64,000 nucleotides of DNA, taken from Verrucomicrobiota bacterium. Its GTDB lineage: Bacteria > Verrucomicrobiota > Verrucomicrobiia > Verrucomicrobiales > DEV007. Shown here in pieces: positions 48,141-51,309 of this stretch. The stretch covers positions 62,001 through 126,000 of the forward strand of contig JAHDID010000009.1 in NCBI GenBank assembly GCA_020630975.1, given 5' to 3'. Made by a program: the position numbers and the translations under genes. A model generated the notes under the pieces. That model made no database searches. It was not told where the DNA came from and was given only the letters and a program-made list of their open reading frames with translations. Positions within the stretch are counted from its first letter, which is position 1, and every line of letters begins with the position of its first letter.

Positions 48141-48650
48141 ATGGCTAACTGGGAGACATTATACGAAGAAAACGGCGCAGCGCTGGTGCTCTATGCTGCG
48201 CAGTTCGTATCCTCTCGAGCGCTCGCAGAGGACGTCGTGCACGACTCCTTTGTGAAGCTGATCAGTCAGCGGCGACTGAGGCAGCACCCCAATCCCCGCG
48301 CCCTAGTCTTTCAATCGGTGCGCTGGACTGCTCTCGACTACGTGCGCCAAGAGCAGCGCCGAAGAGACCGCGAAGATCAGGCAGAGTGGTTTGACCAAGG
48401 AGAGCCAGAAAGTGATAAGGAATTCATATCCCTAGTCACTGGTCTACTGGAGAAACTGCCCAGTGAACAACGCGAAGTGGTAGTGCTGCACATCTGGGGA
48501 AAGCTGAGCTTCAGGGAAATCGGCGAACAACTCGAGATCTCGAGCAATACAGCGGCGAGCCGATACCGCTACGCCATGAACAAACTCAAAGAGGAAGCCG
48601 GTCGACTAAAGGAAGTAGTCGCACACCCGATCAACCTAACGATGGAATGA
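48141..48650 (+). CDS. ECF-type RNA polymerase sigma factor
   Basis: 169 residues. Region 2 (AALVLYAAQFVSSRALAEDVVHDSFVKLI; RALVFQSVRWTALDYVRQ) and region 4 (KLPSEQREVVVLHIWGKLSF, REIGEQLEISSNTAASRYRY) are clear; no region 3. The gene overlaps the next by four bases (ATGA at 48647), suggesting a sigma/anti-sigma operon. Target promoters cannot be told from the window. Confidence 0.9.
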   Translation: MANWETLYEENGAALVLYAAQFVSSRALAEDVVHDSFVKLISQRRLRQHPNPRALVFQSVRWTALDYVRQEQRRRDREDQAEWFDQGEPESDKEFISLVTGLLEKLPSEQREVVVLHIWGKLSFREIGEQLEISSNTAASRYRYAMNKLKEEAGRLKEVVAHPINLTME

Positions 48651-49081
48651 TGGATAAAGACAATCAGTCAGAATTCGAAGCCCAACTGCACGCCCTGCAG
48701 CCCAGCCCTGCCGGCACCAATCTCCAGCAGCGCATCCGCAGATCGGTCATGCGCAGGCGCCTGATCACTACTGCTAGCCTGACGGGAGCCGCAGCCATCG
48801 TATGCCTGCTGCTTTTCTGGAGTCAGCAGCCAGTCAGCCTGCCTGCGGTGGAAGCCATCGAAACCGTCGACACCCAGCCATCGACTAGTCCGGCCGATCT
48901 GCAGCAGATCGTACTAGCAGCCTCGAAGCCGCGCCTCATCCAGCTACCCGACCAGTCTGCCGTCTGGGAGATCCGCCTAGAAATCGCCAACCACTCGACA
49001 TTCGAAAGCCAAACCGGCTCGGAACAGAACATTTTCACCAACGAAACTCGCTCGGTATTCGTGCCAGCAGTTTTCAGGTAA
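48647..49081 (+). CDS. Membrane protein, probable anti-sigma factor of the ECF sigma
   Basis: 144 residues. A cytoplasmic helix (FEAQLHALQPSPAGTNLQQR) precedes one membrane segment (LITTASLTGAAAIVCLLLFW, about 39-58) and a periplasmic tail. Size, topology and the four-base overlap with the sigma gene fit a small single-pass anti-sigma factor, but the N-terminal zinc motif (HxxxCxxC) of the ZAS family is absent. No family recognised. Confidence 0.55.
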   Translation: MMDKDNQSEFEAQLHALQPSPAGTNLQQRIRRSVMRRRLITTASLTGAAAIVCLLLFWSQQPVSLPAVEAIETVDTQPSTSPADLQQIVLAASKPRLIQLPDQSAVWEIRLEIANHSTFESQTGSEQNIFTNETRSVFVPAVFR

Positions 49082-49118
49082 CAACGACAACAACTACATT
49101 ACCGAACCCAACCTATCG

Positions 49119-49937
49119 ATGAATGCCAAAAACATTACCCTATCCCTACTCGCTCTGTGTCTGAGCTCAGCCATCTGTCTAGCTGAGACCGAGAAACACG
49201 CCTTTCTCGGAGTCGTCACCTACCCAGTAGATGAAGTCACGATGAGTCATTTGGGCATCAATCACGGCTTGGTGATCAAAGCCATCGATGCCAACAGTCC
49301 TGCTTCTACGGCTCTGCAGCAAAACGACATCCTGCTGAAGCTCAACGATCAGCTACTGATGAATCCCAGCCAACTCGCCAGCCTGATCAAAACTCACAAC
49401 ATAGGTGACACGGTGCAGGCCAGCTACCTACGAGCCGGCGAAGAGGGCTCTGCGGAAGTGAAACTAGCCGAAAAAAAGGCTCAGACCGCCAACAAAGCTC
49501 TACAGAAAAGCGCAAATGCAGCTCTGGCCAACTCTGAAATTTTACGTAACGAATTCCAAATACTAAATTCTTCTACACTAGATAGTATCAACGATCTACA
49601 GATCTCCGTCGACGGCCAAGAAATCAATATCGGCGAGGTCGTCGATCTCAGTTCCATCTTAGGCGGCCTAGCCGATGCAAATGGCAGCGTCATGACCAGC
49701 ATCAACACCGTCGCGTCATCCATCAGTGTCGATGGCGATACCACCTACCAGATCACTTCCCAAGAGGGCAAAACTTCGGTGAAGATCAAAGAAGGCGGAA
49801 AACTCGTCTTCGAGGGTCCCTACCATACAGACGAGGACAAAGCGACGGTTCCCAAAAAATACCGCAAACACCTGGATGATCTGAGTAGCAAAACCAGCAG
49901 TGTGGTGATCACTCATCCCTCAGAAGAGGCCAATTAA
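49119..49937 (+). CDS. Secreted PDZ-domain protein
   Basis: 272 residues. Signal peptide (LSLLALCLSSAICLAE), then a PDZ domain at about 25-115 (FLGVVTYPVDEVTMSHLGIN, GLVIKAIDANSPASTALQQN, DILLKLNDQLLMNPSQLASL). The rest has coiled-coil and beta segments of unknown fold. Lies 37 bases after the anti-sigma gene, so the three form an operon; a periplasmic sensor or effector of the sigma pathway is a reasonable guess. No protease domain. Confidence 0.75.
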   Translation: MNAKNITLSLLALCLSSAICLAETEKHAFLGVVTYPVDEVTMSHLGINHGLVIKAIDANSPASTALQQNDILLKLNDQLLMNPSQLASLIKTHNIGDTVQASYLRAGEEGSAEVKLAEKKAQTANKALQKSANAALANSEILRNEFQILNSSTLDSINDLQISVDGQEINIGEVVDLSSILGGLADANGSVMTSINTVASSISVDGDTTYQITSQEGKTSVKIKEGGKLVFEGPYHTDEDKATVPKKYRKHLDDLSSKTSSVVITHPSEEAN

Positions 49938-50052: not shown

Positions 50053-51309
50053 ATGCTCAGACTCACCACAGCGATTTTCTTTGGCTTGCTCATGTCTCGC
50101 ACTGCTCAGTGCCAGACAGCGGAGGCGCCCGCCTTTGAGTTTCCCGCACCGGTCATCGCCGAGGAGAATTTCGACCAATGGATGGCCTTCGTCGAGCCGA
50201 CGGAGGAGGAGCTGGCGTGGCGAGATCTCCGCTGGTACTCCAAGCTATCCGTAGCCGTGGCAGAGGCAGAGCGACAGGGCAAACCTATCCTACTCTGGAC
50301 CATGAATGGCCACCCCTGTGGCGAGACGTGAAACAACGGCGTCATCGGCCGCAAGGAGATCTGGTCAGATCCCGAGATACGAAAGAAGGCTAGCGAGAAA
50401 TTCATCTGCGTCATGGCAGACTGCTTCTACCTAGATCCACCACGCACCGTCCGCCGCGTGCCCGATCCGGATGGCACTCGGATCTTTCGCAAATTCCTCC
50501 GTACCACGCCAAAGATCCTGCCACTACGCACCAAACAAGGGCTCTACACCATGACACCCGACGGCCAGTGCATGTCTGGCCGATTCGCCGCGCACTCGAA
50601 TACCGCCGCCTGGGAAGTCATCGATCAGGGCCTAGAAGTCTGGGAAAAAATCGCCTCCAGCTACCCGGCCAAATCTACCGAAGAAAAGACCGCTGCCGAC
50701 GAGCCACTATCTCTCGCGGGAGGAAAATTCTACAAAGGCTACCTGAAGCTCCGTGTCAGCTACCGCGACCTACCGCGTGGCGATACCGAGCGCCCCGGCT
50801 TCAGCCAGCACTCCAATCCCTACAACCTCGGCTGGTATCGACTGCCACAGAGAGACGCCGTAGCCCTACTACAGAAAGAAGACGCCACCGTGTGGAAGAA
50901 ACTGGTGAAAAACACCCTCAAAGACTCGGTGCGCGGCCAGATGCCAGACTGGAAAGACTCCGACTGGCGCGACTCGAGCCTACGCGTCACCCATGTCGGC
51001 ACACAGGGCGGGATCGCCTCCTACCGGATCCAGTCACGGATCCGCATAGGCAACACTCGAGCTGCCTATGCCCCCACCGTCTACGGCAAAGCCGACGTGG
51101 TCATCGAGACCGGAGAATTTCTCGACTTTCAGCTCCTAGCCAGCGGGCAGCGGGCTGGCAAAGGCGCGGCCAATGGCAGGACGAAAGATCACGGCCCTGC
51201 GCCATTAGGCGTCGCGCTACGGCTCATCCACGAGCCTAAAAAGGACAGTGCTGCGGCTAACGAAGCGTTCCAAAAATCCAGCGATCTCGCCCTAGCCAGC
51301 GACGAGTGA
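50053..51309 (+). CDS. Candidate selenoprotein, thioredoxin-like with CxxxU motif
   Basis: A single reading frame runs from the ATG at 50053 to the stop at 51309 except for one in-frame TGA at 50329-50331. Read as selenocysteine it gives 418 residues: a signal peptide (LTTAIFFGLLMSRTAQC), then a thioredoxin-like start (SVAVAEAERQGKPILLWTMN), C89-G-E-T-U93, NNGVIGRKEIWSDPEIRKKA, and 300 further residues without a stop. The downstream part keeps the family-like order FYLDPPRT, GLYTMTPDGQCMSGRFA and LKLRVSYRDLPRGDTERP. A SECIS-like hairpin follows the TGA (50355-50373). Secreted redox role is likely. Alternatives are a nonsense mutation or an error; the intact frame and codon use on both sides argue against long decay. 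Sec-insertion genes are not in the window. Confidence 0.72.
50355..50373 (+). promoter_or_regulatory. Candidate bacterial SECIS hairpin
   Basis: GG-A-GATCT-GGTC-AGATC-CC: a 5-bp apical stem with a GGUC loop, a bulged A and a two-pair base. The loop begins 32 bases after the TGA, within the 16-37 base range reported for bacterial SECIS elements, and has G at its start as they require. Confidence 0.6.

Follow-up and report, generated by a model that had tools for sequence, protein, structure and literature searches.

A probable exported thioredoxin-fold selenoprotein of Verrucomicrobiota with TGA at the proposed selenocysteine position in all sampled close relatives

Analysis of a 64,000-nucleotide stretch of Verrucomicrobiota DNA (hereafter the window) revealed a gene at 50053..51309 on the + strand that, with a probability of roughly 0.9, encodes an exported thioredoxin-fold selenoprotein of 418 residues, in which selenocysteine 93 (Sec93) is inserted by SelB and Sec-tRNA(UCA) and serves a redox enzyme; no close form with cysteine at this position was found. 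The selenoprotein assignment is strongly supported by sequence comparison and has no experimental proof. In the mechanism that we propose, UGA 50329-50331 would be decoded as selenocysteine by SelB and Sec-tRNA(UCA), the insertion itself being inferred, and a hairpin with a GGUC loop 31 nt downstream would direct this decoding, as suggested by conservation and covariation and not by experiment. Sec93 would sit at the thioredoxin active site, with the upstream cysteine (C89 here; at -2, -1 or -3 in others) as its likely partner, and the two are inferred to close a selenenylsulfide during turnover. The protein would most likely be an extracytoplasmic selenol/thiol redox enzyme, namely a disulfide reductase, isomerase or peroxidase, although this is inferred and the substrate is unknown; the C-terminal beta-rich domain may recognise the substrate or a partner.

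The reading frame runs from ATG 50053 to a terminal TGA at 51307-51309, and TGA 50329-50331 is its sole internal stop. A preliminary description of this DNA had counted 92 codons before the internal TGA and 325 after it and had numbered the motif C89-x3-U93; our reading of the frame agreed on both points, and with the TGA read as U the motif is HPC(89)GETU(93)NNG. Homology to proteins with the same TGA spans most of the length of the protein. The N-terminus resembles a signal peptide (50053..50115, about residues 1-21, with a low-confidence model helix at 9-19), and the protein is probably exported, as judged from its residues without a signal-peptide prediction.

Relatives were sought with searches that read through stops and accepted any codon in the Sec column. 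Of 74 genomes of the window's taxonomic family, 30 contained a match to the read-through protein at E <= 0.001. Profile A1, built from 23 sequences, matched in at least 75 of 386 genomes of the order, in at least 16 of 384 genomes of a class set (8 of those outside the order) and in at least 2 of 387 genomes of a phylum sample (the window's own genome and G313). These genome counts are lower bounds because the alignment searches scored at most four candidates per genome. Three family members, all with TGA, were found in the window's own genome.

The preliminary description had proposed that homologues with Cys or TGA at residue 93 would support selenocysteine. In the profile alignment of fetched loci, the codon in the Sec column was TGA in 109 of 109 distinct relatives that cover the position, and TGG, TGC or TGT occurred there in none; before the class sequences were added, the alignment had given TGA in 100 of 100. 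Sequences were regarded as distinct when they differed in the 66-base stretch from the TGA, and only profile hits at E <= 1e-3 within fetched loci were counted. One counted row (L139) contains N letters. The second pieces of L032 and L127, as well as L141, do not reach the Sec column and were left out of the 100. Further places stand outside the count. In the order search these were G033:C342, G672:C141, G463:C26 and G679:C81, all short of the Sec column, and G036:C721, G035:C34 and G065:C438; in the family search, G046:C29, G044:C1, G036:C811, G043:C8, G050:C143 and G035:C16 (E 8e-6 to 2e-4); and in the class search, G811:C22 and G530:C61. Each of the uncounted places that reach the Sec column has one TGA inside. 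No Cys in place of Sec was found among the 109 profile-level relatives, a sample of one class plus the phylum sample. Cys at the active site was seen only in distant relatives, namely the VPGC forms of VPGUxxT proteins and L036 (G037:C79), which has no internal stop, carries CHWC, is not a profile hit and lies outside the 109.

Several further subfamilies were observed among the relatives: NCUQNG (L131, L133, L135-L138, L140, L143, L151), RCUVFA (L037, L144, L146-L149, L190) and LCNTUGNG (L126, L193). All have TGA, with a Cys one or three residues upstream, and a palindromic stretch 3' of the TGA was judged by eye to be present in several. No NCBIfam model fitted nine members of these three and other outlying types. 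In the contig C16 paralogue and in some relatives (L157:5448-6215; upstream frames in L158-L160), the thioredoxin part is preceded by an added N-terminal stretch that is absent from the window protein; the single such stretch scanned had no Pfam match.

The AlphaFold2 model of the whole protein had a mean pLDDT of 79.1 and a pTM of 0.78, and in it residues ~53-201 (50209..50655) form a predicted thioredoxin fold. VIA-align matched model residues 55-201 to 3f9u_A with Z 12.9 and rmsd 1.9 over 108 aligned positions, and to 1sen with Z 11.9, while the Pfam model PF13899 (Thioredoxin_7) scored 23.8 bits, under its gathering cut-off of 27. The model is weak at residues 91-100 (pLDDT 59), and Sec93 stands in this low-confidence stretch, just ahead of a short helix. 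Where Sec93 would fall relative to a CxxC motif is not settled: blastp aligned it with the first Cys of L036, which is DUF255-like by reading of its sequence, and hhalign aligned it with the second Cys in VPGUxxT proteins. The C-terminal beta-rich domain (50668..51243, about residues 206-397; model pLDDT 80.3) reached at best a VIA-align Z of 6.7, in a range that the tool deems uninformative. With Foldseek, neither the whole model nor this domain had a match at E <= 0.001, and a sequence search of solved structures returned nothing or chance matches.

A CxxxU redox motif had been claimed for the window protein. The model of the window protein has the thioredoxin fold, C89 and U93 stand as described, and in the family a Cys lies within four residues upstream of Sec in 105 of 109 sequences; as to spacing, CxxxU is a minority form in the family and CxU the commonest. 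The Cys lies at -2 in 68 of the 109, at -1 in 20, at -4 in 14, at -3 in 2 and at both -4 and -1 in 1. At the codon for C89 (50317..50319), the presumed partner thiol, 14 of 15 sequences of the window's own subfamily encode C and L049 encodes A. It is uncertain that C89 acts as the partner, because four of the 109 sequences lack a Cys anywhere from -1 to -4, and one of these (L049) belongs to the same subfamily. The most economical interpretation is a Sec-Cys redox pair whose spacing varies.

A selenoprotein in which Sec and the upstream Cys bind a metal, a metalloid or selenium, and carry out no disulfide or peroxide chemistry, is the alternative that survives best, though we hold it to be unlikely. 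Q162 (93 of 100) and G163 (95 of 100) are nearly invariant and stand where the cis-Pro loop of thioredoxins would presumably be expected, a position inferred and not mapped, and this gives the binding role some support. On the other side, the fold is that of a thioredoxin, a Cys lies close to Sec in nearly all relatives and no conserved neighbour hints at metals. In a recent review, atom or moiety binding is predicted for about 20% of known selenoprotein families, about 70% of that being metals or metal-derived molecules (PMC13188914), which also speaks for a binding role.

It is also conceivable, and in our view improbable, that the gene belongs, as a divergent member, to a family already described, either VPGUxxT (NF041382/NF041383) or Trx7/PDZ (NF041199). 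Profile comparison with six VPGUxxT-type proteins gave a probability of 94.8 and E 5.3e-8 over residues 47-200, and sub-threshold NCBIfam matches confined to the thioredoxin part were obtained. All of these matches fell far below the curated cut-offs, which are 350 and 275 bits for the two VPGUxxT models: the window protein (P0001) scored 11.2 bits to NF041382, and the best relative (L129) reached 23.4 bits against the 275 of NF041383. No NCBIfam model accepted P0001 or any of the 15 relatives scanned. The window protein has no VPGU motif at Sec (HPCGETU in its place; the distant row L038 has VPGVFU), no Cys at +3 and no PDZ domain in the Pfam scan. Moreover, VPGUxxT has Cys forms in the sampled genomes, and none was seen in the window's family. 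Among eight VPGUxxT loci in the same taxonomic family, three have TGA (L195, L198 and L200, the last a broken copy under the cut-off), four have TGC or TGT (L194, L197, L199, L201) and one (L196) had neither VPGU nor VPGC by script; this served as a check that Cys forms can be detected in genomes of that taxonomic family. The examined part of Table 1 of a 2026 review (PMC13188914; 119 families and subfamilies) held no matchable entry, and among the papers listed by full-text searches on selenoproteins of Verrucomicrobia/Verrucomicrobiota, new families, Trx7 and families without Cys homologues, none on the family was seen.

The selenocysteine machinery, whose presence the preliminary description had left to be checked, was complete in the window's own genome: selA scored 522.4 bits (cut-off 267.9), selB 272.6 (242.25), selD 301.1 (125) and selC, the gene for tRNA-Sec, 58.6 (47). 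The four genes lie on four separate contigs. The selB match covers only model positions 2-350 of 581, in a frame of 668 residues, and ARAGORN also called a tRNA-SeC with anticodon tca. In 14 control genomes, selB, selD and tRNA-Sec matched at E <= 0.001 in all and selA in 4, and for this reason only scores over the cut-offs were counted; at that level the controls gave selB in 2, selD in 2, tRNA-Sec in 5 and selA in 1. By hand tally, selB was over its cut-off in 20 of 27 genomes that carry the family (E <= 1e-13) compared to 16 of 45 others. Of the seven carriers without such a selB, G021 (165 bits) and G019 (164 bits) contain selB-like fragments, and the other five genomes are 70-85% complete. 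By reading, the SelD of the own genome (L045, G000:C77) is part of a 754-residue frame whose N-terminal portion is oxidoreductase-like, and the active loop of SelD has Cys and not Sec.

The bSECIS-type hairpin (50355..50373, + strand) consists of a lower stem of GG 50355-50356 with CC 50372-50373, a bulged A at 50357, and an upper stem of 5 bp (GAUCU 50358-50362 with AGAUC 50367-50371) closed by a GGUC loop at 50363-50366. Folding reproduced the 5-bp stem, loop and bulge described before, as well as the distances given: counted from the TGA, the lower stem begins at base 24 and the loop at base 32. The GGUC loop and bulged base presumably resemble the E. coli fdhF SECIS. The published bSECIS model requires 3-9 nt in the loop, 4-16 bp in the upper stem, a G within the first two loop positions, a UGA-loop spacing of 16-37 nt and a minimum free energy of at most -7.5 kcal/mol (PMC13188914). 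The window's hairpin fits in loop (4 nt, G first), stem (5 bp) and spacing (31 nt between UGA and loop). Folding the 57 nt that follow the TGA gave -13.5 kcal/mol, and the bare 19-nt hairpin gave -5.5 kcal/mol; the limit is passed only with the flanks included, and agreement with the model in energy depends on the length that is folded. Taken alone, the window's hairpin is weak evidence. A 60-nt fold gave z = -0.26, and the same five pairs arise in 6% of synonymously recoded versions of the stretch. Of the 2078 TGA triplets present on either strand of the window in any frame, 5 precede a GGUC-loop hairpin of at least 5 bp. An Rfam scan gave no meaningful SECIS match.

As a conserved feature, the hairpin goes far beyond chance. 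In the window's subfamily (ETUNNG, n = 15 including the window), the GGUC loop is present in 15 of 15 members, and all five upper pairs form in 13, compared to 0.70 expected under synonymous recoding; the mismatches are in L083, at the varying upper pair, and L092, at the outermost upper pair. The second upper-stem pair is G-C in 7, A-U in 6, G-U in 1 and unpaired in 1, and changes in the Ile/Val codon are often accompanied by changes in the Asp codon. The Ser codon is TCA in all 15, compared to 6% of Ser codons in nine window genes. In shuffles of the 15 members, the covariation score was reached in 5 of 500, the share of paired cells in 27 of 500 and the number of double-change pairs in 387 of 500; most of the covariation comes from a single upper pair, and 9 of the 15 lack pairing at the outermost lower position. 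A sister subfamily (GHP..C[TV]UNNG, n = 59) has a different hairpin, 13 bases nearer the UGA, with 18 nt between UGA and loop. Here 99.3% of cells are paired and 46 cells are changed on both sides, the covariation score was 0.508 versus 0.261 (0 of 500 shuffles as high), and 57 of 59 members are fully paired compared to 5.2 expected under synonymous recoding. The sister hairpin appears in the minimum-free-energy structure of 57 nt in only 36 of 59 members. By script, every bSECIS condition, including presence in that structure, was met by 13 of 15 in the window's subfamily and 35 of 59 in the sister. With loops at 31 and 18 nt, one protein family has two hairpin positions, 13 nt apart.

Both the machinery and the hairpins bear on whether the UGA, instead of encoding Sec, is translated as one of the standard amino acids (Trp, Cys or by near-cognate read-through), an explanation that we consider very improbable. 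Nothing beyond the open frame speaks for it, and there are no mass spectrometry data. Against it, the genome has Sec machinery with tRNA-Sec(UCA), the co-varying hairpins stand at SECIS distance, none of the 109 relatives has TGG, TGC or TGT at the site, and UGA also ends the same gene.

The coding constraint downstream of the TGA was estimated as dN/dS (NG86) in 11 pairs of relatives and ranged from 0.05 to 0.22 (at most 250 codons per pair, 85 and 187 in two pairs; one pair was saturated in dS). Ahead of the next ATG (50413), the 27 codons that follow the TGA include R100, kept in 99 of 100 sequences, and N95 and G96, kept in 87 of 100; these are among the best conserved residues of the alignment. 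These low dN/dS values and the residues conserved before ATG 50413 mean that neither a second gene after a stop nor a pseudogene explains the data. The remark that random decay would not give such a combination was upheld by the TGA in 109 of 109 and the low dN/dS, and the comparison supports the view that the UGA is a sense codon under strong constraint. A decayed or misassembled gene, or a pair of genes, in which the TGA would be a true stop or erroneous and the second frame would begin at ATG 50413, can practically be dismissed on the same evidence, even though an ATG-started ORF of 298 aa does exist there and is what mechanical annotation would give.

The surroundings of the gene were compared in 19 stretches around relatives plus the window, and no conserved neighbourhood was found. 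Besides the gene's own halves, the commonest neighbour cluster was sulfatase-like by reading and was seen in 5 of the 20 stretches. G511 and G532 have their surroundings in common, and a few further pairs have some genes in common. In G313 (L161:8206-11754) and G580 (L162:7960-9453), a frame that also reads as sulfatase-like follows the family gene a short way downstream. Directly upstream of the window's gene and on the same strand, 48141-49937 holds an ECF-type sigma factor, a small ORF without a Pfam match and a PDZ protein. ECF sigma factor, PDZ, SOUL and PSCyt genes were considered as partners and rejected, because no neighbour is widely kept beside the relatives; the upstream ECF-type sigma factor remains a possible regulator, although it too is not kept. 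A promoter scan gave no promoter and one terminator-like site, on the opposite strand.

The window's gene appears to belong to a broader clade in which only Sec has been seen and in which the places of the Cys and the SECIS differ, within a sample of one class plus the phylum sample and with distant Cys relatives in existence. We lean towards the wider proposal that the window's class holds an entire superfamily of exported thioredoxin-like proteins whose Sec is obligate and cannot be exchanged for Cys, and that Sec has kept its place as the partner Cys moved within the range from -1 to -4, with the SECIS loop at 18 or 31 nt in sister subfamilies. According to reviews, almost all selenoproteins have Cys homologues and the main search methods rely on them (PMC13188914, PMC9312934, PMC12013277), and the deep-Sep authors state that their method may misidentify selenoproteins without Cys homologues. 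Since TGA stands at the same place in all sampled close relatives, a search based on Cys relatives probably misses this family, which would be a blind spot of such methods; if so, Sec-only families would be invisible to searches for Cys/TGA pairs. The family would also offer a natural test of Sec retention, with no exchange here and both forms of the related VPGUxxT in genomes of the same taxonomic family, and its two SECIS positions would offer a direct test of the range over which the element can move.

Among known systems, VPGUxxT shares with the window protein a thioredoxin-like part that is homologous by profile, and a Sec at the active site. A TGA-bearing member over its cut-off is present in the same genome (L195, G000:C93:14143-14997); it differs in having VPGU followed by AGC (UxxC), and VPGUxxT has Sec or Cys among the sampled genomes. 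Trx7/PDZ (NF041199, with CxxU in Table 1 of PMC13188914) is similar in its Trx7-type domain and in a Sec that follows a Cys, with a sub-threshold match at residues 60-120, but it scored 13.9 bits against a cut-off of 300, and P0001 has no PDZ and the family has CxxxU or CxU, not CxxU. The thioredoxin-like selenoprotein Sec.1 (PF13192; same table) has CxU, the commonest spacing in the window's family; the Pfam scan gave no PF13192 match at E <= 1 in P0001 or seven relatives. TsoC (NF045708, NEPxGxxU; same table) resembles the family only in the motif PxGxxU, and its model of 87 positions matched neither in the own genome nor in any of the 14 control genomes. In modelled structure, residues 53-201 share the fold of 3f9u, an exported protein related to cytochrome c biogenesis, and of 1sen, the ER protein Rp19; from both, the window protein would be set apart by its active-site Sec, its other Cys spacing and its extra C-terminal domain.
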